Positions 28,319 to 64,000 of a stretch of 64,000 bases of DNA are shown here, piece after piece. Every line of letters starts with the position of its first letter. Within the stretch, counting starts at the first letter, position 1. A model generated the notes under the pieces. That model was not told the DNA's origin. It ran no database searches and saw only the letters and a program-made list of their open reading frames with translations. The DNA comes from an uncultured Bacteroidota bacterium. Its GTDB lineage: Bacteria > Bacteroidota > Bacteroidia > Flavobacteriales > Flavobacteriaceae. Position numbers and translations under genes: made by a program. Location: positions 1 through 64,000 of the forward strand of contig CABXHU010000002.1 in the NCBI GenBank assembly GCA_902512065.1, read 5' to 3'.

Positions 28319-28651
28319 TCATTTGTATTTATTGTAAATAGCTGAAAAGATAAATAATACTCCAGGCAATGCCAATGCGTCTATCATAGAAAAATCATAT
28401 GGGCTGTCGTCTATTAAATTAAAGGCTCCTATACTTATTACTGTAATAACTCCGCCAATAAGCTCCCGCCTCCAAGCAATTATTTGCCCTAAACACACCC
28501 CGATTGGAAAAAACAAAAATAATGCCCCCTCTTTCATCGAAAGAACTTTGGTAAATTCATCTCCAGTCAAATGAGCAATGAAAAAGAACACTATAATTCC
28601 TATTGAGATTGCACTAGAAATTCTGGCAATCAAATAAAGAACTTTTTTCAT
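28319..28651 (-). CDS. Small integral membrane protein, unknown function
   Basis: 110 residues with about four hydrophobic segments (roughly 5-28, 40-62, 66-82, 90-106). I recognise no characterised family; a similarity to small DUF7670-like membrane proteins is possible but uncertain. It is divergent from the Cys/Met-rich outer-membrane gene, with the Fnr-like site 28697-28710 between them. On the minus strand a TATATTAA element at 28674-28667 lies at the spacing seen for the other Fnr-like promoters, so it may be induced at low oxygen. Confidence 0.6.
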   Translation of the reverse strand: MKKVLYLIARISSAISIGIIVFFFIAHLTGDEFTKVLSMKEGALFLFFPIGVCLGQIIAWRRELIGGVITVISIGAFNLIDDSPYDFSMIDALALPGVLFIFSAIYNKYK

Positions 28652-28696
28652 GTTTTATGTTTCTGTTTAATATAGCGCTTTTAATAGGGTAAAAAC

Positions 28697-28710
28697 ATGA
28701 TAATTATCAT
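28697..28710. promoter_or_regulatory. Fnr-like palindrome 1 (ATGATAATTATCAT)
   Basis: A perfect 14-base palindrome, ATGAT-AATT-ATCAT, lies in the gap between two divergent genes. Its half-sites and 4-base spacer match the Fnr box except for the outermost base (A instead of T). The nearest promoter-like element at class II spacing is on the minus side (28674-28667). On the plus side the -7-like AATTTTTG (28725-28732) is too close for class II activation. Confidence 0.65.
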
Positions 28711-28767
28711 ATTTTTTTGACTCTAATTTTTGTTTCTTAAGTTTTTTAATTTAATTCCTCTTTTCCT

Positions 28768-29832
28768 ATGAAAAATTTGACACTTATCCTGGCTCTTTTC
28801 TTTCTTAATATTTCATTTTCACAAGACAATTTTTGTTGTACTTCACCTGATGATCCTGAATGTTGCTCACTAAATGATAATAAAGATTGTTGTGCAGAGC
28901 GACCTGATGGTCATGGTCCTATAAATTTAATGGGAGATCATATGCATAGTAAAGGAGATTTAATGTTTTCGTATCATTATATGGGAATGTTTATGGAAGG
29001 TGCTCTAACAGGTTCTGAGGAAATTTCAACAGAAACAATCTTTGAAAATTATATAAATTCTCCTGAAAAAATGAAAATGGATATGCACATTTTGAGTCTT
29101 ATGTTTGCACCAAGTGATGAGATCACTCTAATGTTAATGGCAAATTATACTTCGAAATCAATGGATATATTTACAAACACTCTTGAGGTGTTTAATACGA
29201 ATTCAAGTGGTTTTGGTGATATTTCTGTAATGGGATTGTATAAAATCATGTATGAACCAAAGCAAGCTGCACATTTTAATGTGGGATTCTCAATTCCAAC
29301 AGGAAGTATTGATCAAAGAGACAATACACCAATGATGAATAATACTTTGCTGGGCTATTCTATGCAACTTGGTAGTGGAACCTTTGATGTAATAATTGGA
29401 GGAACATATTTTAATCAATTAGAAAATTTTTCCTGGGGAGCGCAAACACTATATAAGTCTAGAATTGGTAAGAACTCCAAACATTATACTCTTGGAGATA
29501 GAGCAGAAGCTACAATATGGAGCGCCTTTAAGGTTTCTAAAAAGTTAAGTCTTTCAACTAGTATAAACTATTATAAACTGAAGAATTTAGAAGGTTATGA
29601 TTCAGATTTAAATTCAATGATAAACCCATTAGTCAACTCAATAAATTCTGGAAGAAGCCAAATAGATTTTGGTATTGGCAGTAACTATATTATTCCTTCA
29701 ACAAGTTTAAATAAACTTAGACTATCTATTCAGGCTAGTTATCCTTTATATCAAAATGTTAATGGCATTCAAATGAAAAACACATGGAGCGGAGTTTTTG
29801 GCTTAAAATATTCATTTAAAAATACTCTGTAA
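28768..29832 (+). CDS. Cys/Met/His-rich outer-membrane beta-barrel protein, possibly copper-related
   Basis: 354 residues. After the signal peptide (ends near ISFSQ) comes a cluster of paired cysteines, C-C at 23-24, 31-32 and 41-42, then a Met/His-rich stretch (MGDHMHSKGDLMFSYHYMGMFME). The rest has alternating beta-strands like the MetA-pathway/transporter-type outer-membrane barrels, ending in 'FGLKYSF'. Related barrels often accompany copper or heavy-metal genes. N2O reductase needs twelve copper ions per dimer, so a role in copper supply is a reasonable inference, not shown. It is preceded by the Fnr-like site at 28697. Confidence 0.65.
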   Translation: MKNLTLILALFFLNISFSQDNFCCTSPDDPECCSLNDNKDCCAERPDGHGPINLMGDHMHSKGDLMFSYHYMGMFMEGALTGSEEISTETIFENYINSPEKMKMDMHILSLMFAPSDEITLMLMANYTSKSMDIFTNTLEVFNTNSSGFGDISVMGLYKIMYEPKQAAHFNVGFSIPTGSIDQRDNTPMMNNTLLGYSMQLGSGTFDVIIGGTYFNQLENFSWGAQTLYKSRIGKNSKHYTLGDRAEATIWSAFKVSKKLSLSTSINYYKLKNLEGYDSDLNSMINPLVNSINSGRSQIDFGIGSNYIIPSTSLNKLRLSIQASYPLYQNVNGIQMKNTWSGVFGLKYSFKNTL

Positions 29833-29854
29833 TTACTGATTTTTTTTTGTTTTT

Positions 29855-29868
29855 ATGATAATTGTCAT
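29855..29868. promoter_or_regulatory. Fnr-like palindrome 2 (ATGATAATTGTCAT), nos operon
   Basis: ATGAT-AATT-GTCAT lies upstream of the fasciclin-cytochrome-nosZ operon. Its centre is about 41 bases before the transcription start predicted from the -7 element 29891-29898, the position for class II activation by Crp/Fnr proteins. Confidence 0.75.
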
Positions 29869-29890
29869 TTTATTAAAAATGATGCTAATT

Positions 29891-29898
29891 TATTTTTG
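29891..29898 (+). promoter_or_regulatory. Promoter -7 element (TATTTTTG) of the nos operon
   Basis: A perfect TAnnTTTG element. Its TTTG starts 27 bases after the end of the Fnr-like site; no good -33 TTTG is present, as expected for an activator-dependent promoter. The predicted start near 29902 gives a leader of about 24 bases. Confidence 0.65.
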
Positions 29899-29925
29899 GT
29901 GTATTAATACTAAAAGACTTGTATT

Positions 29926-30516
29926 ATGAAAAAATCTAAGATATCATTCACAGCTCTATTGTCAATTTTATTTGTTGCAGCATTAGCAATTATTTATATT
30001 GATTTTACTCAGGCCACTAGAGAATTTGTCACTAATTCAGATTCTGTAACTAATTTAAATACTCCTCTAGGGCAAGCAAGTGTTGTAGATAATATTTCAG
30101 ATCCAAATATTTTACAAGTAGCAATGAGTTCAAAAGACCACACAACTCTTGTAACAGCTATTCAGGCTGCTCAAATTGAACATGTCTTAGTTAATGCAGG
30201 GCCATTAACTGTTTTTGCCCCAACAAATGAAGCCTTTGATTTCTTACCTAAAGGTACAATTGAAAATTTATTAGAGCCTGAAAACAAACAAGAACTAACT
30301 ACAATTTTAACACAACATGCTGCTCCTGGAACATTTGATATTGAAAAACTAAGGAAGGAAGCTGCAAAAAAAAGAAAAATATATATGGCAACTGGGTCTT
30401 ATTTAGAAATAACAACAAAAGGAGAACATGTTTTTGTTAATGGCTGTAAAGTTATTGCTTCTATACCAACAGTAAATGGCATTATAAATGTAATTGATAA
30501 AGTAATTATTCTATAA
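29926..30516 (+). CDS. Fasciclin (FAS1) domain protein, first gene of the nos operon
   Basis: 196 residues. An N-terminal hydrophobic anchor or signal (about 8-27) is followed by one FAS1 domain (about 60-196) with the H1 region 'LVTAIQAAQIEHVLVNAGPLTVFAPTNEAF' split as usual and the H2 region 'VNGCKVIASIPTVNGIINVIDKVI'. FAS1 domains mediate protein-protein or surface contacts; here the protein faces the periplasm. It begins the nos transcript and lies 12 bases before the cytochrome gene, so it may assemble or dock the electron-transfer partners of NosZ (inference). Confidence 0.88.
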   Translation: MKKSKISFTALLSILFVAALAIIYIDFTQATREFVTNSDSVTNLNTPLGQASVVDNISDPNILQVAMSSKDHTTLVTAIQAAQIEHVLVNAGPLTVFAPTNEAFDFLPKGTIENLLEPENKQELTTILTQHAAPGTFDIEKLRKEAAKKRKIYMATGSYLEITTKGEHVFVNGCKVIASIPTVNGIINVIDKVIIL

Positions 30517-30528
30517 ATATTTTTTAAA

Positions 30529-30993
30529 ATGAGAAAAAAAACATTAGTACAATTTATATTATTGGGAATCTTAACATACTCATGTAGTAGTGATGCATCC
30601 TTAAACAAATCTAACTTTGAAACAAAAGCACTTTCTACAAAAACAATAAATAATCCAATGCAAGATAAAGGGATTGGCCCCATTACATCAGTAAAAATAA
30701 ATACTGAAATTAATAAAGATCTGGCTATTCATGGAAAAACTTTATTTGAAACAAATTGTATAGCCTGTCATAAGCTAGATAAACGATTTATTGGCCCCGC
30801 AATCACAGGTATTACTAAAAGAAGATCTCCAGAATGGATAATGAATATGGTTTTGAATCCTGAGCAAATGGTTAAAGAAAACCAATTGGCAAAACAATTA
30901 TTAATGGAATACATGTCGCCAATGGCAAATCAGAATCTTACAGAAAATGAAGCACGCGCTGTGCTTGAGTATTTTATTGAAATTGATAACTAA
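30529..30993 (+). CDS. Monohaem cytochrome c lipoprotein (nos cluster)
   Basis: 154 residues. A lipoprotein signal ends at Cys19 (ILTYSC). The haem c site C77-I-A-C80-H81 is followed by a Met-containing segment ('MEYMSPMAN', axial ligand probably Met129 or Met132). Small class I cytochromes next to clade II nosZ are thought to deliver electrons to N2O reductase, and this one lies only 15 bases upstream of nosZ. It would sit on the periplasmic face, tethered by lipid. Confidence 0.9.
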   Translation: MRKKTLVQFILLGILTYSCSSDASLNKSNFETKALSTKTINNPMQDKGIGPITSVKINTEINKDLAIHGKTLFETNCIACHKLDKRFIGPAITGITKRRSPEWIMNMVLNPEQMVKENQLAKQLLMEYMSPMANQNLTENEARAVLEYFIEIDN

Positions 30994-31008
30994 ATAACAC
31001 TAAATATT

Positions 31009-33012
31009 ATGATAGATTTTAAAAACACAATTAAAGATATTAAAGATTTTATTTATATCTGGTTTGGGGAATTAATTTTTGTTGCTGGGTTAATCTTATT
31101 ATTATTCTTTTTTCTTTCATGTGAAGAAACATCTAATCAAGGAGCTTTAAAGAGTGATATAGCTGAAAAAGTATATGTACCACCAGGAGAACACGATGAA
31201 TTTTATGCATTAATTTCTGGTGGCTTTAGCGGTCAATTATCAGTTTATGGACTACCATCTGGAAGGCTTTTTAAAGTAATTCCTGTTTTTTCTCAAGATC
31301 CAGAAAAGGCATACGGATATAATGAAGAAACCAAGCCAATGCTTAATACTTCATATGGCTTTGTTCCCTGGGGAGATGCACACCATCCTGATATTTCACA
31401 AACTAATGGCGAACTAGACGGTAGATGGGTGTTTATAAATGAGAATAATACACCAAGAGTTGCAAGAATTGATTTAACAACTTTTGAAACCGTTGAAATT
31501 ATTGAATTACCTAATTCTGCAGGGAATCATAGCTCTCCTTATGTTACGGATAACACGGAATATGTGGTTGCAGGAACGCGTTTTGGAGTGCCTGTTCCAC
31601 AACGCGATATGCCAATAGATGAGTATAAAGGAAATTTTAAAGGAGCTCTTTCCTTTATAAAAGTTGATCAAGAAACCGGAGGCATGAATTTAGAGTTTCA
31701 AATAATGATGCCAGGATTTGATTATGATAAAGCTCATCCAGGGAGAGGGAAATCTCATGGATGGATGTTTTTTACTACATATAATGTAGAAGAAAGCAAT
31801 ACATTACTTGAAGTTAATGCCTCTCAAAGAGATAAAGATTTTATAGCTGCTGTAAACTGGAAAAAAGCAGAGGAATATATTAAATCTGGAAAGTATACAA
31901 CCATGAGCACGAAATATGCTCATAATGTATATGATGAACATACTCAATCTGCGACAAGTACAATGAAAAAGGAGGTTAAAATATTAGATCCTAAGGAATG
32001 TCCTGGACTTGTTTATTTTATTCCTATGCCGAAATCTCCACATGGATGTGATGTAGACCCCTCTGGAGAATATATAGTGGGAAGCGGAAAATTGTCAGCG
32101 AATGTCACTGTGCATTCGTTTTCAAAAATGATCAAAGCAATTAGTGAAAAAAAGTTTGATGGAGAGGCTTATGGAATTCCAATAATTAATTTTGAAGATG
32201 CACTTGCAGGAGTCGTTAAGCAGCCTGGATTGGGACCTCTTCATACAGAATTTGACAATAAAGGGAATGGATATACAACATTTTTTATTTCTTCAGAGGT
32301 TGTTAAATGGAAATTAGGAACATGGGAAATTTTAGACAGAAAACCAACTTATTATTCTGTAGGACATTTAATGATCCCTGGAGGAAATTCCCAAAGTCCC
32401 TTTGGTAAGTATCTTCTTGCATTGAATAAAATTACAAAAGACAGGTATCTTCCAACTGGTCCTGAGGTATGTCACTCTGCACAGTTATATGATATATCTG
32501 GCAGTAAAATGGAATTGTTATTAGATTTTCCTACCATAGGAGAGCCTCATTATGCTGCTGGAATTCCAGCAAGTTTAATCAAAGAAAAATCTAAAAAAAT
32601 ATACAAATTAGAAGAGAACCATCACCCTTATGTTACAAGAAGTCCAAAGGATGCAAAAGTTGTTCGAAATGGAAATGAAGTTCATGTATATATGACCATG
32701 ATAAGATCTCATTTTGCGCCTGATAATATAGAAGGGGTTAAAGAAGGTGACAAGGTCTATTTTCATGTAACAAATCTTGAGCAGGATTATGATGTTCCTC
32801 ACGGGGTCGCTATGATTGGTGCAAACACTTCAGAATTACTAATTATGCCAGGGCAAACAGAAACCTTTATTTGGGATGCTAATCAAGAGGGGGTATGGCC
32901 ATTTTATTGTACAGATTTTTGTTCAGCCCTTCATCAAGAAATGCAAGGATATGTTAGGGTGTCACCTAAAAGTAGTAACATAAAATTAAATTGGTCTTTA
33001 GACGGAGAATAA
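31009..33012 (+). CDS. nosZ: Nitrous oxide reductase, Sec-type (clade II)
   Basis: 667 residues. It reduces N2O to N2 in the periplasm. The seven CuZ histidines can all be placed: His125 and His126 (GDAHHPD), His174 (GNHSS), His345 (SPHGC), His412 (PLHTEF), His453 (VGHLM) and His513 (GEPHYA). The CuA domain has His598, Cys634, Cys638, His642 and Met645 (CTDFCSALHQEM). The N-terminus has a hydrophobic segment at 21-37 and Cys38, but no twin-arginine motif, so export is Sec-dependent, as in clade II; the n-region is unusually long at about 20 residues. A lipobox-like FLSC suggests lipid anchoring. Confidence 0.97.
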   Translation: MIDFKNTIKDIKDFIYIWFGELIFVAGLILLLFFFLSCEETSNQGALKSDIAEKVYVPPGEHDEFYALISGGFSGQLSVYGLPSGRLFKVIPVFSQDPEKAYGYNEETKPMLNTSYGFVPWGDAHHPDISQTNGELDGRWVFINENNTPRVARIDLTTFETVEIIELPNSAGNHSSPYVTDNTEYVVAGTRFGVPVPQRDMPIDEYKGNFKGALSFIKVDQETGGMNLEFQIMMPGFDYDKAHPGRGKSHGWMFFTTYNVEESNTLLEVNASQRDKDFIAAVNWKKAEEYIKSGKYTTMSTKYAHNVYDEHTQSATSTMKKEVKILDPKECPGLVYFIPMPKSPHGCDVDPSGEYIVGSGKLSANVTVHSFSKMIKAISEKKFDGEAYGIPIINFEDALAGVVKQPGLGPLHTEFDNKGNGYTTFFISSEVVKWKLGTWEILDRKPTYYSVGHLMIPGGNSQSPFGKYLLALNKITKDRYLPTGPEVCHSAQLYDISGSKMELLLDFPTIGEPHYAAGIPASLIKEKSKKIYKLEENHHPYVTRSPKDAKVVRNGNEVHVYMTMIRSHFAPDNIEGVKEGDKVYFHVTNLEQDYDVPHGVAMIGANTSELLIMPGQTETFIWDANQEGVWPFYCTDFCSALHQEMQGYVRVSPKSSNIKLNWSLDGE

Positions 33013-33029
33013 TAATAAACAAATAAGTT

Positions 33030-33533
33030 ATGATTGGAATTAACGAAAAATTTCCAGAATTCAAGCTTTTAGGAGTAGATGGAAATGAAATATTAGAAAT
33101 AAGTAGTCAAGATTATAAACAATGGAAGGTAATTTATTTCTACCCAAAGGATTTCACTTTTATTTGTCCTACTGAAATTACAAGCATGGACAAGTTAAAT
33201 AGTGAGGCTAAAGTTTTCGGAATAAGTGGAGACAATGAATATTGCAAATTAGCCTGGAAAAAAGAGAATGAAGGATTGCGTTTTATTAAGCATCCACTCT
33301 TGGCTGATTCTGGTTTAAAATTATCAAGAGAAATTGGAGTAGTAGATCAAGAAAATGAAGTTTGTTTACGAGCTACTTTTATTATTGATGAAAATAATAT
33401 TATAAGACATGTTTCTTGTAATGATTTAGATACAGGACGAAGTGTTGATGAAATATTACGCACACTACAGGCCTTGAAGACAGGCGGGCTTACTGGCTGT
33501 CAATGGGCTCCTGGAGATAAATTTGTGGGATAA
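33030..33533 (+). CDS. AhpC/TSA-type peroxiredoxin in the nos operon
   Basis: 167 residues. The peroxidatic Cys46 lies in 'KDFTFICPTEI'. Further cysteines are 72, 112, 130 and 157; Cys157 in 'GGLTGCQWAPGD' matches the C-terminal position of the resolving cysteine in mycobacterial-type AhpC. There is no signal peptide, so it acts in the cytoplasm. It reduces hydrogen peroxide and organic peroxides, perhaps also peroxynitrite. The gene lies only 17 bases after nosZ in the same direction, so it is probably part of the nos transcript. Confidence 0.9.
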   Translation: MIGINEKFPEFKLLGVDGNEILEISSQDYKQWKVIYFYPKDFTFICPTEITSMDKLNSEAKVFGISGDNEYCKLAWKKENEGLRFIKHPLLADSGLKLSREIGVVDQENEVCLRATFIIDENNIIRHVSCNDLDTGRSVDEILRTLQALKTGGLTGCQWAPGDKFVG

Positions 33534-33574
33534 AAAATGAATTTAGTATATCTTTTAATTTGTTGTTTTGATAA

Positions 33575-33637
33575 GTGCTATGGTGTGGTTAGCATAGCAC
33601 ATTATAGAGGTAGGTGTTTTTTAAAGATGCCTGCCTC
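33575..33637 (+). other. Two tandem RNA hairpins between the peroxiredoxin gene and nosL
   Basis: Hairpin 1 pairs GTGCTATG (33575-33582) with CATAGCAC (33593-33600). Hairpin 2 pairs GAGGTAGG (33607-33614) with CCTGCCTC (33630-33637), with one G-U pair. Neither is followed by a T-run, so they do not look like terminators. They occupy the 122-base gap in the middle of the operon, which otherwise contains nothing I can name. Processing or mRNA-stability elements that set different levels for nosZ and the accessory genes are likely. Confidence 0.6.
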
Positions 33638-33655
33638 TAATTAAAAAAAGAAAAA

Positions 33656-34714
33656 ATGGAAAAATCAAAATTATATATGAGCTTAGGAATGATAATGTTT
33701 TTTGTAATATATTTTGTTCCAATATGGACTGTCACATTAGAAGCTCCACAATATCCTGAACCTATTGGTCTGAATATTTGGATTAATAAAATTAGCGATA
33801 TGAATCCAAATGATTTAAAGAATATAAACCTAATGAATCATTATATAGGAATGGATGAAATCCCAGAACATATTCCTGAATTTGATTTTCTTCCATTAAT
33901 CTTAGGAAGTATGATTATTCTTGGGTTTATATTTATTTATTTCAATAATAAAAAACTATATGCTTTTTGGTTTATTCTAATGACTGTTTTAGGTATGCTA
34001 GGGATCTATGATTTCTGGCTCTGGGGACATGAGTATGGTCATAATTTAGATCCTAATGCTGCAATAAAATTTGTAGATGAATTTGGGAATCCTTTAGCCT
34101 ACCAACCCCCAGTAATTGGCAAAAAAACTATTTTAAATTTTGTAGCAATCTCCAAACCAAACATCGGAGCTATTCTAATTATAATTGGAATGCTTATGGT
34201 TTCTCTTTCAGTTTATGTAAAAAAAGGAGAAAAAATTTTCTATAATCAGAAGATAAAAATAAAAAATAAAATTATTGCTGCAAGATTATCCTACACGCTA
34301 TTAATACTACCATTAATGTATTCTTGCAGTGTTAATGCACAAAAGGTAAATTATGGCGAGGACCTTTGTTATAATTGTAAGATGCACATTGTCGATACTC
34401 AGCATGCTGCTCAAATTATAACCAAAAAGGGGAAAAAATTTCTTTTTGATTCTATTGAATGCATGCTCAATGAAATGTCAAATATGGATTTGAGTAAAAA
34501 CAAATTGTATCTAGCAAACACATATTATGGAAAAGAAACATTTTTTGATGTAAATAATCTAACCTTTTTAATATCTAAAAAAATTCCAAGCCCAATGGGG
34601 GGTAATTTAACCGCATTTAAAAATCTTGATGATGCTCATAATATAATGAAGGATATGGGTGGTGAAAATTATAATTGGAAAGAAATAAAAAAGAAATATA
34701 ATATTATACAATAA
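33656..34714 (+). CDS. nosL: Fusion of a multi-pass membrane protein with NosL
   Basis: 352 residues. Residues 1-190 have four hydrophobic segments (about 8-24, 78-96, 102-120, 168-187) with motifs 'WTVTLEAPQYPEP' and 'LWGHEYGHNLDP', matching a membrane protein often found as a separate gene in Bacteroidota nos clusters. A fifth segment (about 208-223) ends in a lipobox-like LMYSC. Residues 229-352 are NosL, with the copper-binding Cys238-x2-Cys241-x-Met243 and 'FDSIECM'. NosL delivers Cu(I) to apo-NosZ. With N-terminus inside, five passes put NosL in the periplasm, as required. Confidence 0.88.
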   Translation: MEKSKLYMSLGMIMFFVIYFVPIWTVTLEAPQYPEPIGLNIWINKISDMNPNDLKNINLMNHYIGMDEIPEHIPEFDFLPLILGSMIILGFIFIYFNNKKLYAFWFILMTVLGMLGIYDFWLWGHEYGHNLDPNAAIKFVDEFGNPLAYQPPVIGKKTILNFVAISKPNIGAILIIIGMLMVSLSVYVKKGEKIFYNQKIKIKNKIIAARLSYTLLILPLMYSCSVNAQKVNYGEDLCYNCKMHIVDTQHAAQIITKKGKKFLFDSIECMLNEMSNMDLSKNKLYLANTYYGKETFFDVNNLTFLISKKIPSPMGGNLTAFKNLDDAHNIMKDMGGENYNWKEIKKKYNIIQ

Positions 34715-34725
34715 TAACATTTGAA

Positions 34726-35970
34726 ATGAAATCATTACTAACCACTATTATTTGTTTATTCTCTATCAATATTATATACTCATCCGTAATAATTGTCTGT
34801 AACAAGTGTGATATATCTGATATATCAATAGCCATTGATAAAGCCAAAAACCACGATACTATAATTATCAAAAAAGGAACTTATTATGAATTTGATATAG
34901 AAATTAATAAGCCCATAAAAATTATTGGAGAAAATTCAATAATTGATGTTGAGTTTAATGGAGGAGGATTTAATATAAAATCTGACAGTGTATATTTATC
35001 TAATTTAAAAATCAATAATATTAAAAGATCATATACGAAGGATATTGCTGGTATTGTGGCTTATAAATCAGACCATTTTGTAATAGAAAATATTGAATTT
35101 AATAATCCCTTTTTTGCAATATTCTTGCAAAAATCTAGGAATGGTATAATACGGAATAATATAATAAAAGGAGTCAATAATGATGTATTAAATTCTGGAA
35201 ATGGGATACATCTATGGGATTCAAAAAATATAGAAATTGAAAACAACAAAATAATTAATATGCGGGATGGTATATATCTAGAGTTTGTTAGTGCTGCTAG
35301 CATAAATAATAATATAAGTGAGAAAAATTTGCGATATGGACTTCATTTTATGTTTTCAAACGAAAACAAATATTCTAATAATATTTTTATAAATAATGCG
35401 GCTGGTGTAGCAGTAATGTTTTCTAAAAATATTATAATTCACAGTAATAGATTTGAGAATAATTGGGGCTCTTCTTCTTACGGCCTTTTATTAAAAGAAA
35501 TTTATGATGCTAAAATTCAAAACAATTATTTTTATCAAAATACCATTGGAATAGCTGTTGAGGGATCAAACAGGATCAACTATAATCATAATATTTTTAA
35601 ACAAAACGGTTGGGCTACAAAAATTTCTGGGGGGTGTTATGAAAATATTTTTACAGATAACGATTATCTAAATAATACCTTTGATCTTTCATATAAAGGA
35701 CGAGAAAATGATAATGTATTCTCGGGAAATTATTGGAGCAATTATGTTGGTTATGATTTAAATCATGACGGTATAGGTGATGTCGCATTTATGCCAATTA
35801 AATTATTTTCTTATATAGTAAATTCAGTTCCTGAAGCAATAACACTTCATAGAAGTTTATTTGTTGAATTAATAAACTTTTCAGAAAAAGTAGCTCCAAT
35901 ATTTACACCCAAATACATAATGGATAAGGAGCCAAAAATAAAACCAATAAATTATGTTATCAATTACTAA
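34726..35970 (+). CDS. nosD: Periplasmic NosD maturation factor
   Basis: 414 residues with a signal peptide (ends near IIYSS). The body is a right-handed parallel beta-helix of CASH/PbH1 repeats rich in Asn and Ile ('GIHLWDSKNIEIENNKI', 'GIYLEFVSAASINNN'), as in NosD. The family's C-terminal '.NYWSNYVGYDLNHDGIGD' block is present. NosD works with the NosFY ABC transporter in assembling the CuZ site, probably by handling its sulfur. Its 3' end overlaps nosF by 17 bases. Confidence 0.93.
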   Translation: MKSLLTTIICLFSINIIYSSVIIVCNKCDISDISIAIDKAKNHDTIIIKKGTYYEFDIEINKPIKIIGENSIIDVEFNGGGFNIKSDSVYLSNLKINNIKRSYTKDIAGIVAYKSDHFVIENIEFNNPFFAIFLQKSRNGIIRNNIIKGVNNDVLNSGNGIHLWDSKNIEIENNKIINMRDGIYLEFVSAASINNNISEKNLRYGLHFMFSNENKYSNNIFINNAAGVAVMFSKNIIIHSNRFENNWGSSSYGLLLKEIYDAKIQNNYFYQNTIGIAVEGSNRINYNHNIFKQNGWATKISGGCYENIFTDNDYLNNTFDLSYKGRENDNVFSGNYWSNYVGYDLNHDGIGDVAFMPIKLFSYIVNSVPEAITLHRSLFVELINFSEKVAPIFTPKYIMDKEPKIKPINYVINY

Positions 35971-36649
35971 TCTTAATAAGAGTTTTGGAAAATTAGAAGT
36001 TCTTCAAGGAATTAATATAAATATTGTTAAGCAAGGCATATTTGCAATATTAGGCCCAAATGGTTCAGGGAAAACAACATTAATTAAGACAATATTAGGC
36101 TTGGTTATTCCTGATTTTGGCTCGATAACTATAAATGATAAGGAAATCATTAACAGATGGGCTTATAGATCAGAGATTTCATATTTACCTCAAATTGCGA
36201 ACTTTCCCAGTAATTTAACGGTTATAGAAATAATTAATCTGATTAAAAATATACGGCCAAACACAAAATTGGACAAGGACCTTATTGATTTATTTAATAT
36301 TAAAGAGTCAATGAATAAAAAACTAGTAGATCTTTCTGGCGGAACAAAACAAAAAGTAAACATTGTTCTCACCTTTATGTCTGACTCACCAATTATTATT
36401 TTAGATGAACCTACAGCAGGATTAGATCCAATATCTTTAATAAAGTTAAAAGATCTGCTTATAAGAGAGAAAGAAAAAGGAAAAACTATAATAGTTACTT
36501 CTCACATAATGAGTTTTATTGAAGAGATATCTCATGATATTTTCTTTCTTCTAGATGGAAAAATTTTCTTCAATGGAACAATAGAAGATTTGAAAGTAAG
36601 AACAAATGAAAGCACTTTAGAACGTGCCATTGCCAATCTATTAAAATAA
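35954..36649 (+). CDS. nosF: NosF ABC transporter ATP-binding protein
   Basis: 231 residues. Walker A GPNGSGKTT is at 34-42, the ABC signature LSGGTKQKV near 130, and Walker B 'IIILDEPTAGLDP' follows, with the H-loop in 'TSHIMSF'. It supplies ATP energy for the NosDFY complex that matures the copper-sulfur centre of NosZ. It overlaps nosD by 17 bases and precedes nosY by 5, so translation is tightly coupled. Nothing is missing. Confidence 0.95.
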   Translation: MLSITNLNKSFGKLEVLQGININIVKQGIFAILGPNGSGKTTLIKTILGLVIPDFGSITINDKEIINRWAYRSEISYLPQIANFPSNLTVIEIINLIKNIRPNTKLDKDLIDLFNIKESMNKKLVDLSGGTKQKVNIVLTFMSDSPIIILDEPTAGLDPISLIKLKDLLIREKEKGKTIIVTSHIMSFIEEISHDIFFLLDGKIFFNGTIEDLKVRTNESTLERAIANLLK

Positions 36650-36654
36650 TAGAA

Positions 36655-37437
36655 ATGTATAAAATATTAAGATATAGTTTTTATGATTTAATTAGAAGTA
36701 AATGGTGTTATATATATTTTGGTTTTTACTTTATATTAAGTTCAAGTCTGCTGTTTTTAAATAATAGTTTAGCAAAATCAATTATTACTTTAATGAATGT
36801 CATAGTTGTGCTGACTCCTCTTATAGGATCTATTTTTGGAGCTATGTACTACTATAGTTCTAAAGAATTTGTTGAATTATTATTAGCTCAACCCATAAAA
36901 AGAAATACAGTTTTTTTAGGACAATATATAGGGCTTTCATTATCTCTATCAGTAAGCTTATTGTTAGGGCTTTCTATACCTTTTATTGTTTATGGAATGC
37001 TAATTTCTCCAGAAATAACAAATTTTATTTCAGTAATAATCATTGGAGTATTGTTGACATTTATTTTTACGGCTATTTCATACTATATAGCTCTTTCAAA
37101 TGATGATAATATAAAAGGGATTGGCATAGCCATTCTTTTTTGGTTATTTATGGCAGTAATTTATGATGGCATTTTTCTTATATGCTTATTGACATTAAAA
37201 GAATATCCTCTAGAAAATTTCTCATTATTTTCAATCTTGATAAATCCAATAGATTTATCAAGGATCTTAATCATTCTTAAATTAGATATTTCTGCACTTT
37301 TGGGGTATACTGGAGCTGTTTTTCAAGGATTTTTTGGTAGAAAAATGGGCATATTAATTATTGGCTCTGTATTAATGTTATGGACAATTATACCAATAAT
37401 TATGATTAATATTAAAAGCAAAAGAAAAGATTTTTAA
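36655..37437 (+). CDS. nosY: NosY ABC transporter permease
   Basis: 260 residues with six hydrophobic segments and the family pattern 'YYSSKEFVELLLAQPIKRNTVFLGQ' after the second one. NosY forms the membrane part of NosDFY. It is the last gene of the nos transcript; the next gene has its own Fnr-like promoter 120 bases on. Confidence 0.93.
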   Translation: MYKILRYSFYDLIRSKWCYIYFGFYFILSSSLLFLNNSLAKSIITLMNVIVVLTPLIGSIFGAMYYYSSKEFVELLLAQPIKRNTVFLGQYIGLSLSLSVSLLLGLSIPFIVYGMLISPEITNFISVIIIGVLLTFIFTAISYYIALSNDDNIKGIGIAILFWLFMAVIYDGIFLICLLTLKEYPLENFSLFSILINPIDLSRILIILKLDISALLGYTGAVFQGFFGRKMGILIIGSVLMLWTIIPIIMINIKSKRKDF

Positions 37438-37489
37438 TTTCTTTTTTATAAATCATTAAATTTTATATAAGCTAAAAAAGAGTTAAAAT

Positions 37490-37503
37490 ATGATATACGT
37501 CAT
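37490..37503. promoter_or_regulatory. Fnr-like palindrome 3 (ATGATATACGTCAT)
   Basis: ATGAT-ATAC-GTCAT stands upstream of the CcoP-like cytochrome gene. A TTTG (37530-37533, within AACCTTTG) begins 27 bases after the site, exactly as in the nos promoter, and places transcription start near 37537-37540. Confidence 0.72.
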
Positions 37504-37558
37504 ATTTTAACTATAATATATTAACAACCTTTGTCTTATGATTATAATTCAAGTGTAG

Positions 37559-38263
37559 ATGAAGGTTTTATTTCCATCATGGATTAGAGTTTCTCTTCTA
37601 TTTATAATTCTAATTGGATTATTTGAATTACTATTTGGATCAGGAACAAAAATAGTTTTTTTAGAAAAACCTATTATTCTCTTATTTTTAATTTTATTCT
37701 TTTTACTTATAATAGCTTTTGAATTAGTCTTAGGATGCATTAGGGCTATTCTTGACCAATCAGGAATCAAAGGAGTTTCTTCTAATCATAAAAAAATAAA
37801 AGCTTATTTAGACCCTAAATGGGCATATTCTTCAATAATAGGCATTATTTGTTTTGGATCATTTTTTGGTGGAGATTATTTTTTTGATTCTAACTATTCC
37901 TTGAAAAAAATTATAGAAAATCATCAAAAAAATAATTTTTCGAATATTGAAATTTTAACAAGTTTAAATGATCTTGAAAATGGTAGAAATATATATGAGA
38001 CAAACTGTTCTGTATGCCATGCTAATGATGGAGGCGGAGGTATTGGTCCCAATTTTACGGACAGTTATTGGATACAAGGCGGTGGGATAAAAAATATCGT
38101 GAAGACAATAACTTTGGGCGGAAGAGAGGGTAAAGGGATGATCGCATGGAATGAGATTTTAACCCCATTAGAAATTAGCCAGGTAGCAAGCTATATAGTT
38201 CGTTTTGAAGGTAATAACTCAGTTAAGCCTAAAGCTGCTGAAGGTGCCTTGTGGACTAATTAG
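37559..38263 (+). CDS. CcoP-like membrane-bound cytochrome c
   Basis: 234 residues. Two hydrophobic segments (about 8-26 and 38-60) and a third near 91-105 precede a periplasmic haem c domain with C150-S-V-C153-H154 and axial Met194 (GKGMIAW). The 'NC.VCH..DG.GGIGPNFTD.YWI' and 'RGMIAW'-type motifs resemble CcoP of cbb3 oxidases from Bacteroidota. No ccoN, ccoO, ccoG or ccoS gene is in the window, so this is an orphan copy. It may carry electrons to NosZ or to an oxidase encoded elsewhere. The Fnr-like site upstream suggests induction at low oxygen. Confidence 0.85.
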   Translation: MKVLFPSWIRVSLLFIILIGLFELLFGSGTKIVFLEKPIILLFLILFFLLIIAFELVLGCIRAILDQSGIKGVSSNHKKIKAYLDPKWAYSSIIGIICFGSFFGGDYFFDSNYSLKKIIENHQKNNFSNIEILTSLNDLENGRNIYETNCSVCHANDGGGGIGPNFTDSYWIQGGGIKNIVKTITLGGREGKGMIAWNEILTPLEISQVASYIVRFEGNNSVKPKAAEGALWTN

Positions 38264-38307
38264 TTAAAATAATTTTGCTTTTATTACCGAAAATAAATTC
38301 CGGTTTT

Positions 38308-38321
38308 ATGATAAATGTCAT
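38308..38321. promoter_or_regulatory. Fnr-like palindrome 4 (ATGATAAATGTCAT)
   Basis: ATGAT-AAAT-GTCAT precedes the small membrane protein and the lactamase-fold/rhodanese gene. A TTTG (38348-38351, within TTCTTTTG) begins 27 bases after the site, again the same spacing as at the nos promoter. Confidence 0.72.
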
Positions 38322-38370
38322 ATTAATTTTTTTTCAATTTTTGTTCTTTTGATTATAATAATAATTGACT

Positions 38371-38634
38371 ATGAAACTAAGCTCTTATCAAAGAAAAGAC
38401 CAATATTTGTTTAATATAATAGCAGGTTTTGTTATTTCAGTAATAGTTGCTGGATGTTCAACATATTATATAGCTCAGCATCTAGATTATTTTGTTCTTA
38501 GACTTATGTTAACTGCTATTCCTATTGCTATTTTATTGGTTTGCATATTATCTGTTCAACCCCCCAAAACAATATACTATGCTACAATTCTATCACTTAC
38601 AGCAAGTTTTTTATCAATACTAATTAATTTTTAA
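38371..38634 (+). CDS. Small three-pass membrane protein, unknown function
   Basis: 87 residues from the ATG at 38371 (an in-frame TTG lies two codons upstream). Three hydrophobic segments at about 14-33, 40-58 and 63-84. I do not recognise a family. Its stop codon (38632-38634) is separated by one base from the ATG of the metallo-beta-lactamase/rhodanese gene, so the two are co-transcribed behind the Fnr-like site 38308-38321. A membrane partner or sulfur-compound carrier for its neighbour is possible, but this is only inferred from position. Confidence 0.6.
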   Translation: MKLSSYQRKDQYLFNIIAGFVISVIVAGCSTYYIAQHLDYFVLRLMLTAIPIAILLVCILSVQPPKTIYYATILSLTASFLSILINF

Positions 38635-38635
38635 A

Positions 38636-40057
38636 ATGAATATAAAACAGCTGTATACTCCCTGTCTTTCTGAGGCTACTTATTATATTAGCTCAAATGG
38701 AGAGGCTGCAATTATTGATCCCCTTAGAGAGACTAAGCCTTATATAAATCTTTTACAATCTGACAATACTAATCTCAAATATATATTTCTTACTCATTTT
38801 CATGCAGACTTTGTTTCAGGTCATGTTGATTTGGCAAAAGAAACTGGAGCAAAAATAATTTATGGCCCTACTGCTATGGCAAATTTTGATTTTCAACAAG
38901 GTGTAGATGGAGAAGTTTTTAAGCTTGGAAAACTAGAAATTAAATTAATTCATACTCCTGGGCATACACTTGAATCAATATGCCTTTTGCTTTTTGATGA
39001 GTCTATGAAGGAGCATTGTTTGTTTTCAGGAGATACAGTTTTTATTGGTGATGTAGGAAGACCAGATCTTGCTGCTACAGATGAATTAACTAAGGAAGAT
39101 TTAGCAAAGCTCTTGTATCGCTCCATACATACTAAAATACTTCCTCTCCCTGATAACATAATTGTCTATCCAAATCATGGAAAGGGTTCCGTATGTGGAA
39201 AACACATGAGTGAAAAAACCTTTGATACGTTATTAGGTCAAAAGCAAACAAACTATGCGTTAAACCCGAAATTAACTGAAGAAGATTTTGTAGAAAGAGT
39301 TTTGGAAGGTCTTCTTGCTCCACCACAATATTTCCCTAAGAATGTGCAAATGAATAAACAAATAAATAAAAATATAAATGAGATAATTTCAAAAGGCTTA
39401 ACCCCATTAACCATTACCCAATTTCTTAGATTTAGCAGCTGTGAAAATATATTGCTATTAGATGTTCGTTCCGCAAAAGAATTTGCTGATGGACATATAC
39501 CAGGATCAATTTTTATAGGTTTAGAAGGTCCTTTTGCCCCACTAGTTGGAGCACTAATTCCTGATTTGAATCAAAAAATAGTACTAGTTTCTCCGAAAGC
39601 CAGAGAACTAGAAGCTATAACACGGTTATCAAGAGTTGGTTATGATAATGTAATTGGATATATAGAAGATGCTTCAAAATATTGGGAAAATAAGGGATGG
39701 AAATTAGAAAAGTTAAATACAATTAAAGCAACCTCAAAAATTTTATTACAAAATCCTTATTTTATCGATGTTAGAGAAAAAACAAAGTATGAAGTAAGCC
39801 ATGCAAAACACTCTGAAAATATTCCAATCAAGTTTATAAGAAATAATAATTTAAATCCTAATATAAGATACTACGTGTATTGTAACAAGGGATATCTTTC
39901 AACAATTGCAATTTCAATATTTAAAAAACTTGGAATTAATAATCTAGTAAATGTAACTGGTGGATTTGAAGAAATTAAAAAAAGCTTTGTTCCAGTTTAT
40001 AAAAAAGACTGCTCTTGTACTCAATGCAACTGTAAAAAACTTGCAGAACTAAATTAA
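38636..40057 (+). CDS. Metallo-beta-lactamase fold protein with two rhodanese domains (persulfide dioxygenase-like)
   Basis: 473 residues. The N-terminal hydrolase-fold domain has the metal motif THFHADFVSGH (His54, His56, Asp58, His63), 'HTPGHTLESI', 'SGDTVFIGDVGRPDL' and 'YPNHGKGS', which match persulfide dioxygenase (ETHE1/Blh-like). The first rhodanese domain (about 265-355) has no cysteine at the expected place (LVSPKARE). The second (about 370-450) has Cys416 in CNKGYLS. The tail carries a Cys cluster (CSCTQCNC). It may oxidise or move sulfane sulfur; being in the low-oxygen island it could protect against sulfide, which poisons copper enzymes. Confidence 0.9.
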   Translation: MNIKQLYTPCLSEATYYISSNGEAAIIDPLRETKPYINLLQSDNTNLKYIFLTHFHADFVSGHVDLAKETGAKIIYGPTAMANFDFQQGVDGEVFKLGKLEIKLIHTPGHTLESICLLLFDESMKEHCLFSGDTVFIGDVGRPDLAATDELTKEDLAKLLYRSIHTKILPLPDNIIVYPNHGKGSVCGKHMSEKTFDTLLGQKQTNYALNPKLTEEDFVERVLEGLLAPPQYFPKNVQMNKQINKNINEIISKGLTPLTITQFLRFSSCENILLLDVRSAKEFADGHIPGSIFIGLEGPFAPLVGALIPDLNQKIVLVSPKARELEAITRLSRVGYDNVIGYIEDASKYWENKGWKLEKLNTIKATSKILLQNPYFIDVREKTKYEVSHAKHSENIPIKFIRNNNLNPNIRYYVYCNKGYLSTIAISIFKKLGINNLVNVTGGFEEIKKSFVPVYKKDCSCTQCNCKKLAELN

Positions 40058-40062
40058 AACGC

Positions 40063-40746
40063 TTAAATATTAACAATTTTTTCTAGTTTATTTAACTCTA
40101 GAATTTTAATTTTTTTTCCTTTAATCGAAATGTACTTTTTATTTTTTAATTCAGATAAAATACGAATTGCAGATTCTGTAGCTGTACCAACAATATTTGC
40201 ATAATCCTCTCTAGATAATTCGATCATTAACATTCCGTCTTTGTCATTTCCAAAAGAATTATTAATATGTAATAAAAGTTCAATTATACGTTTTTTTACA
40301 GATTTTTGAGCAATATCTACAATTGTATTATTTGAGGTTTTTAGTTCATCTGCCATTGAGTGTAATAATTCCTTAGCAAAATATCCATTTTTCATTATGT
40401 CTGAATTTATTTCTTTTTGTGGAATAAAACACACCTGAGTATCAGTTATAGCTGTAGCACTTAAATTAGTTCTTTCTTGAGCAAATAAGGAGCGCTGTCC
40501 CATTAAGTCTCCCTTTATGATAAGCTTTACAATATGACCTTTCCCATTTACTCCTAATTTTGATAATTTCACTACTCCATCTCGTACACAATAAATGCCA
40601 TTTAATTTTTCTCCTTCTTCAAATATTTTTTTTCCTTTATGAAAAAGCTGTGTTTCTTTAAATTTGCTGATTCTAGCCAATTCTTCTGGATTCAATACAT
40701 TTAATGCATTGCATTTTCTTACTATACAAAATTCACATTTACTCAT
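40063..40746 (-). CDS. Crp/Fnr-family transcriptional regulator with Fnr-type cysteines
   Basis: 227 residues. An N-terminal cluster Cys4-x2-Cys7-x4-Cys12 and Cys106 (in TQVCFIP) match the four Fe-S ligands of Fnr (in E. coli three near the N-terminus plus Cys122 in 'MVCEIP'). The cyclic-nucleotide-like sensor domain spans about 25-115, a dimer helix 118-145 and a winged helix-turn-helix about 170-220. The recognition helix (GTATESAIRIL) keeps the Glu and Arg that read TGA in Fnr, but has Ile where Fnr has Ser212. It is the best candidate to bind the four palindromes in this island. The gene lies convergent with the rhodanese gene. Confidence 0.9.
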   Translation of the reverse strand: MSKCEFCIVRKCNALNVLNPEELARISKFKETQLFHKGKKIFEEGEKLNGIYCVRDGVVKLSKLGVNGKGHIVKLIIKGDLMGQRSLFAQERTNLSATAITDTQVCFIPQKEINSDIMKNGYFAKELLHSMADELKTSNNTIVDIAQKSVKKRIIELLLHINNSFGNDKDGMLMIELSREDYANIVGTATESAIRILSELKNKKYISIKGKKIKILELNKLEKIVNI

Positions 40747-63504: not shown

Positions 63505-64000
63505 ATGAAATTATCAGCTTTTAATTATGAACTGCCAGAAAAACTGGTAGCAGAATATCCAAATAAAAATAGAGATGAATCTCGTTTAATGGTCCTTGAT
63601 AAATCAGATCAATCTATCCAGCATAAATTATTTAAAGATATGATAGATTATTTTGACGAAGATGATGTCATTGTTTTAAACAATACAAAAGTTTTCCCTG
63701 CAAGATTATATGGTAATAAAGAAAAGACAGGAGCAAGAATAGAAGTTTTTTTACTTAGAGAGTTAAATAGCGAGCAAAGACTTTGGGATGTTCTAGTAGA
63801 CCCTGCAAGAAAAATAAGAATTGGAAATAAACTTTATTTTGGAGAGGAAGAAATTTTAGTTGCAGAAGTTATAGATAATACAACATCTAGAGGAAGGACT
63901 TTAAGATTTTTATCTGACACCCCATATGATGATTTTAGAAAATTATTACTTGATCTAGGTCAAACACCTTTACCTAAATATATAAAAAGAGATGTAGAGC
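63505..64000 (+). CDS. queA: tRNA preQ1(34) S-adenosylmethionine ribosyltransferase-isomerase, N-terminal part
   Basis: 165 residues to the window edge, still open. It starts [19 protein letters not shown], and includes '[11 protein letters not shown]', '[12 protein letters not shown]' and '[11 protein letters not shown]', all typical of QueA. It adds the epoxycyclopentane ring to preQ1 in tRNA on the way to queuosine. The YhhQ-like transporter at 20979 would import the precursor. Confidence 0.95.

Follow-up and report, generated by a model that had tools for sequence, protein, structure and literature searches.

The question raised by this locus is what four copies of a 14-base palindrome are doing among genes for nitrous oxide (N2O) respiration. 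They lie in a 64,000-nucleotide stretch of contig CABXHU010000002.1 (the window), from the genome of an uncultured member of the Flavobacteriaceae, around the nos genes, the products of which destroy N2O, a greenhouse gas. An earlier inspection of the letters, referred to below as the sequence-only reading, had reported ATGAT-N4-RTCAT at 28697-28710, 29855-29868, 37490-37503 and 38308-38321 (boxes 1 to 4), always between genes, and a pattern search of the window agrees in every case. The interpretation that we favour, with a probability of roughly 0.86, is that these palindromes are the operators of an Fnr-type activator encoded at 40063-40746 and would place the genes beside them under low-oxygen control.

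In the window the strict pattern gave 7 strand-hits at 5 distinct sites. In 100 dinucleotide shuffles of the window the mean was 1.19 strand-hits and the largest value 6, and none reached 7. A first-order Markov model of the window gaps (27 gaps of at least 30 bp, 2,865 bp together, lying between open reading frames (ORFs) of at least 90 amino acids (aa); gene calls throughout are those of a simple ORF script) predicts 0.005 sites on one strand, and four or more sites appeared in none of 2,000 runs. The assembly as a whole (1,273,972 bases, 44 contigs, 77% complete, GC content 29%) contains 14 distinct strict sites, or 23 strand-hits, compared with 16 strand-hits for a reversed-pattern control, so that the genome-wide strict count alone is little above background. 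Ten of these 14 are inside ORFs, and the only strict sites between ORFs are boxes 1 to 4. The looser core TGAY-N4-RTCA occurs at 121 sites in the genome, against 79 for its control; the closer look at these was limited to the window, and weaker members of the regulon may therefore exist elsewhere. The assertion that the other gaps hold no similar copy is true for the strict motif, although a copy within nosD had been missed (ATGATTTAAATCAT, 35753-35766, no strand assigned). This copy was rejected as a fifth site and is judged to be a chance match, since it is inside the ORF 34726-35970 and the nosD of a sister species has no core box. Another candidate, TTGATCTAGGTCAA at 63950, was rejected because it is inside an ORF.

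The sister species belongs to the same genus (NosZ 92% identical, genome 84% complete) and has a box at all four corresponding places: ATGATATATATCAT beside the DUF7670 orthologue, ATGATAATTGTCAT before the fasciclin gene, identical to that in the window, ATGACTTATGTCAT before the CcoP-like gene and ATGACAAATATCAT before an 87-aa ORF. Inner bases are altered in three of the four and the symmetric outer bases are constant, which gives the consensus ATGAY-N4-RTCAT. One extra box in the sister species precedes a small gene that is absent from the window genome. This comparison also bears on the target of box 1 (ATGATAATTATCAT, a perfect palindrome, minus strand), which lies between a DUF7670 protein gene on the left (28319-28651, minus strand; PF24709, E 2.6e-12) and a gene starting at 28768 on the right (plus strand). 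The statement that each palindrome is upstream of a transcription unit holds for boxes 2 to 4, and has to be modified for box 1, which is between divergent genes and, to judge by its -7-like element and by the sister species, probably belongs to the left-hand one. In both species the box is 59-60 bp upstream of the DUF7670 gene. A role of box 1 as the promoter of the 28768 gene alone was rejected, because the sister species has a different gene there and retains DUF7670. Most likely box 1 serves DUF7670, and control of both genes is possible.

If the palindrome were an operator of the nos genes, it should be concentrated in the gaps of related loci. In 80 nos loci the gaps (117 kb) contain 74 copies of ATGAY-N4-RTCAT and the genes (1,358 kb) 42, or 0.631 and 0.031 per kb, a 20-fold difference, and the motif is thus not equally frequent in genes. 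The sequence-only reading had described the form as that of an Fnr box with the outer T and A exchanged. The classical TTGAY-N4-RTCAA occurs once in the gaps of these loci and 18 times in the genes, which is background, and four versions with altered or scrambled bases occur once in the gaps (three of them) or not at all (one). The outer bases are A..T, and the box is therefore not the canonical FNR box TTGAT-N4-ATCAA. In 73 of the loci the sequence reaches 2.5 kb or more upstream of nosZ; a gap in this upstream region contains a core box in 55 of them and the full ATGAY-N4-RTCAT in 47. In 7 further loci a core box is inside an over-called ORF, which raises the number to 62 of 73 by a looser search that has no separate control. 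The expected conservation upstream of nos orthologues is therefore present. The composite of box and TAnnTTTG, counted with ORF calls ignored (unlike the 55 gap boxes), is present in 51 of the 73 loci, with outer bases A..T in 45 of the 51.

The position of the box relative to the promoter is equally well defined. A search of ten genomes that allowed any gap of 10-36 bp between TCA and TAnnTTTG placed 74 of 150 matches at 23 bp, and the other 26 gap lengths had a mean of 2.9 matches each, with a maximum of 8. (These are 150 of 152 matches, for a pattern starting with TGAT only; the reversed control gave 37.) A directional subset of the nos-locus gap sites, consisting of the 30 of 74 that have one unambiguous direction and full flanks, shows 16 of 17 TAnnTTTG elements at this standard spacing. 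TAnnTTTG is located at -12 to -5 in Flavobacterium psychrophilum promoters, according to a start-site atlas (PMC9723704). Combined with the 23-bp spacing, this gives the palindrome a span of -48 to -35 and a centre at -41.5. Judged by the spacing in ten genomes and by the atlas, the box has the position of a class II activator site. This is also the class II position of E. coli FNR, the targets of which are a low-oxygen set. In the window the -7 element of box 2 (ATGATAATTGTCAT, plus strand, the nos operon promoter, with its counterparts in the 62 loci) is TATTTTTG at 29891-29898 (plus strand) and agrees with TAnnTTTG at 6/6 positions. Those of box 3 (ATGATATACGTCAT, plus strand), AACCTTTG at 37526-37533, and of box 4 (ATGATAAATGTCAT, plus strand), TTCTTTTG at 38344-38351, both on the plus strand, agree at 5/6, and all three stand at the standard spacing.

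The composite extends well beyond nos loci. In 199 Flavobacteriaceae genomes there are 1,399 matches, compared with 29 for the reversed control, and 173 of the genomes have at least one. The genes downstream of it are often hemN, cco, pfl, usp or nos genes. A target scan covered 112 of 147 composites (those missing are 23 of the 26 in genome G025 and some in G021, G154 and G168), and since our rule assigned no downstream ORF to 4 of the 112 it yielded 108 proteins, cut at 400 aa. Their domains include HemN (9), Usp (9), CcoN (6), pyruvate formate-lyase (4), phosphate acetyltransferase (4) and cytochrome c (12). An FNR-type gene and the P-type ATPase gene opposite it are separated by a box in a genome from another genus, where composites then precede ccoS-ccoN and hemN. 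In F. psychrophilum cbb3 oxidase and haem-synthesis genes are up at oxygen limitation, again according to the atlas; the words "fnr" and "crp" were not found in its main text (PMC9723704). Phylum-wide, 55 of 296 genomes have the strict composite: 29/30 of this family, 5/6 of another family of the order, 12/37 of the rest of the class and 9/223 elsewhere, the last group including one genome (G459) with 18. On the evidence of these genomes, the box is the common Fnr-type box of the Flavobacteriaceae, in a lineage-specific spelling, and not a local one.

Which protein, then, might read it? The product of 40063-40746 (minus strand), the regulator named by the sequence-only reading, is the sole match of its kind in its own genome at E 0.001 (4 candidates scored), and the presence of its group tracks the box, as shown below. 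It has a cNMP-binding-type domain (PF00027) and a Crp-type helix-turn-helix (PF13545), both above cut-off. Its score with NF008365, the model for E. coli-type Fnr, is 78 bits, below the curated cut-off of 228, and we therefore call it FNR-type without filing it under that model. Its cysteines are at 4, 7, 12, 53 and 106, and its recognition helix is GTATESAIRILSEL. Cys 4, 7, 53 and 106 are conserved in 35/35 aligned FNR-type rows, and the helix GTATES-x-IR in 31/31 orthologue rows (duplicates included in both counts). The cluster ligands of E. coli FNR are C20, C23, C29 and C122; C4, C7 and C106 align with C20, C23 and C122, and C12, which is seen in the window genus only, is one column off C29. 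In a 10-sequence alignment Val208 and Ser212 of E. coli FNR are replaced by Thr and Ile, and Glu209 and Arg213 are invariant. We take Val208 to be the equivalent of CRP R180. According to PMC1274295, one box base is linked to the residue that corresponds to R180 of CRP, and for HcpR the box bases correlate with the residues of the recognition helix that correspond to R180 and E181.

A second candidate emerged from nosZ genomes picked for absence of an FNR orthologue, all 16 of which encode a Crp-type protein some 350 aa long. Two of these proteins were scanned and contain receiver, cNMP and Crp helix-turn-helix domains; the phospho-acceptor motif is present in 8/8 looked at, and the commonest recognition helix of these fusions, GIATESLIR, is nearly that of the FNR type. 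Receiver-Crp fusion matches at E 1e-45 occur in 85 of the 199 family genomes (L296:1495-2556 and L293:1495-2565 are examples). An FNR orthologue is defined here by E <=1e-45 to the window protein and not by a tree; four genomes at E 1e-36 to 1e-43, first counted with FNR, are in the other group in the following cross-tabulation. Composites per Mb amount to 1.86 in the 69 genomes with FNR only, 3.30 in the 48 with both proteins, 2.51 in the 37 with the fusion only and 0.42 in the 45 with neither, against 0.010 to 0.057 for control composites. None of the 154 genomes with FNR or the fusion is without a composite, compared with 26 of the 45 with neither. A NosZ match is present in 91 genomes (weak in two of them, G128 and G146), and 90 of these encode FNR, the fusion or both; neither was found in G048, which is 82% complete. 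Directly after the fusion gene, G061, G121 and G159 have a composite, then a gene, identified as Usp by Pfam in the first two, and then the FNR-type gene; G198 has a composite and a Usp gene at this place and is without FNR. It is an even bet, in our estimate, that the Flavobacteriaceae have one low-oxygen regulon, with a lineage-specific box, and two alternative sensors for it that read DNA with a common helix. One would be an FNR-type protein with cysteines and the other a phosphorylation-controlled receiver-Crp fusion, which would take over where FNR was lost; the regulon of the window genome would then possibly have shrunk to a 12-kb island with N2O reductase and its own sensor.

The mechanism that we propose for the window follows from class II geometry. 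A dimer of the activator would bind ATGAY-N4-RTCAT centred at -41.5, beside an RNA polymerase whose Bacteroidetes housekeeping sigma factor would read TAnnTTTG at -12 to -5, and would activate the nos operon, the CcoP-like cytochrome gene, a unit encoding a metallo-beta-lactamase (MBL)-rhodanese protein and the DUF7670 gene. The 40063-40746 protein is the predicted activator at all four boxes. Its cysteines probably hold an oxygen-sensitive iron-sulphur (Fe-S) cluster, in which case the genes would come on at low oxygen. The Thr and Ile that replace Val208 and Ser212 may explain the outer A where the E. coli box has T. Thus, of the low-oxygen regulon named by the sequence-only reading, the Fnr-type regulon has the support of the sequences, and low oxygen is its probable signal.

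Three other explanations deserve consideration. It might be argued that the four palindromes came to lie together by chance because the DNA is AT-rich, or that they are repeats with no part in regulation, and the GC content of 29%, the location of 10 of the 14 genomic copies inside ORFs and the modest excess over the control (23 strand-hits to 16) would fit. This reading was rejected, and we give it hardly any credence, because of the gap expectation of 0.005, the conservation in place in the sister species and the fact that in other genomes the -7 element stands at a single, sharply defined distance from the box. A more serious possibility is that the boxes are as described and that their regulator is another Crp/Fnr protein, for instance a receiver-Crp fusion, that is missing from the 77% complete assembly. 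The fusion-only genomes carry composites, and another protein can therefore probably read the box. However, the fusion was not found at E 1e-45 in the window genome or in the more complete genome of the sister; in both species only the FNR-type gene was found, beside the nos genes and with the recognition helix of its group, and we regard a missing regulator as improbable. We think it just as improbable that the regulator is DNR-like and senses nitric oxide (NO) or another nitrogen oxide, not oxygen. The nos genes of Pseudomonas do belong to the targets of DNR and have an FNR-like box (PMC1274295), but the four conserved cysteines argue for a different sensor, the targets beyond nos (hemN, cco, pfl and usp) form a set that goes with oxygen limitation, and 52 of the 117 FNR-orthologue genomes have a composite and no nosZ match.

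Several observations nevertheless weigh against control by an oxygen-sensing FNR-type activator. The third N-terminal cysteine of E. coli FNR is missing from most orthologues (F or L at position 12) and Cys53 is conserved instead, which makes the Fe-S ligand set uncertain; the cluster ligands of the FNR-type proteins of this family may differ from those of E. coli FNR. The gap upstream of the regulator gene has no core box. The -7-like element of box 1, TATATTAA at 28667-28674 (minus strand), is at the standard spacing and matches only 4/6 positions, the weakest of the four. No core box was found upstream of nosZ in 11 of the 73 loci, even by the looser search (4 Calditrichota/Calditrichia/Caldithrix, 1 Saprospiraceae, 3 labelled Bacteroidetes or "bacterium", 1 Flavobacteriales and 2 Lutibacter), and the last three are labelled as Flavobacteriales or Lutibacter. 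Among the 45 genomes with neither regulator, 4 (G048, G051, G138 and G147) have at least three composites, and genomes of this class are often small, so that the co-occurrence partly follows lineage. The boxes of the fusion-only genome G198 have the 5' outer A in 3/10 and the 3' outer T in 10/10, which suggests that the receiver-Crp fusion may read the outer base less strictly. Finally, a Crp/Fnr homologue of a Flavobacteriales metagenome-assembled genome, possibly a different homologue, was predicted to be carbon-sensing and MalR-like (PMC8510549).

Comparison with known systems brings out what is particular to this one. The window system shares with E. coli FNR the TGAT-N4-ATCA core, the 14-bp palindrome and the residues Glu209 and Arg213; it differs in having outer bases A..T and not T..A, in the two helix substitutions, in its -7 element and in a cysteine pattern that deviates at the third position. 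The DNR regulon of Pseudomonas and beta-proteobacteria (CTTGATnnnnATCAAG) likewise places an FNR-like box upstream of nos genes, but its outer bases are different and DNR responds to NO, whereas the window regulator has conserved cysteines. HcpR regulons (TTGACnnnnGTCAA, GTAACnnnnGTTAC) are another case of variant Crp/Fnr boxes, with other outer bases and other target genes (PMC1274295 for both systems). In Nitrosophilus labii a Crp/Fnr protein has been proposed to control clade II nosZ, but that organism is a thermophilic chemolithoautotroph, the consensus is TTGA-N6-TCAA and a negative relation was inferred (PMC11539149). In literature titles and abstract openings, a scope that excludes subscription journals and regulon databases, no description of an Fnr box for Flavobacteriaceae was found. 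From a box with exact promoter geometry one could predict the N2O-consuming bacteria that become active at low oxygen; it is also a test case for the way in which residues of the recognition helix determine the outer base in Crp/Fnr sites.

The remaining features of the island are all on the plus strand. Downstream of box 2 are a fasciclin-domain gene (29926-30516, PF02469), a cytochrome c gene (30529-30993, PF00034), Sec-dependent nosZ (31009-33012; TIGR04246, 937.8 bits against a cut-off of 625), an AhpC/TSA-family gene (33030-33533, PF00578), a NosL-domain gene (33656-34714, PF05573), nosD (34726-35970, TIGR04247 above cut-off), an ABC ATPase gene, nosF-like by position (35954-36649, PF00005), and a membrane protein gene, nosY-like by position (36655-37437, PF12679 below cut-off). 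Box 4 precedes the 38365-40057 unit, which starts with an 89-aa ORF without a family match and includes an MBL-fold/rhodanese gene (38636-40057; PF00753, PF00581); lactamase_B and rhodanese domains are also found in 2 of the 108 target proteins of other genomes. Box 3 precedes the gene for a CcoP-like membrane cytochrome c (37559-38263, PF13442), the product of which is 34% identical, over a 292-column alignment, to a CcoP-like protein encoded behind ccoN in another genome. It is apparently an orphan, no CcoN having been found in the window genome, and may be an oxidase cytochrome that N2O respiration has taken over. The usual core targets of the regulon were not found in this 77% complete assembly: there was no HemN above cut-off, and the oxidase subunit I found is aa3-type only, so that the regulon here, in a genome both small and incomplete, may comprise little beyond the nos island.

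Some minor observations concern the regulator genes in other genomes. In several of them the fusion gene is directly upstream of a box-driven usp gene, and at L321 uspE of E. coli adjoins fnr, like the usp-fnr pairs of flavobacteria. In G168, 10 of 18 composites lie within about 92 kb (G168:C1:3845682-3937953), beside a second receiver-Crp gene. Several composites in this stretch have GC-containing spacers, and the cluster is possibly a separate sub-regulon.

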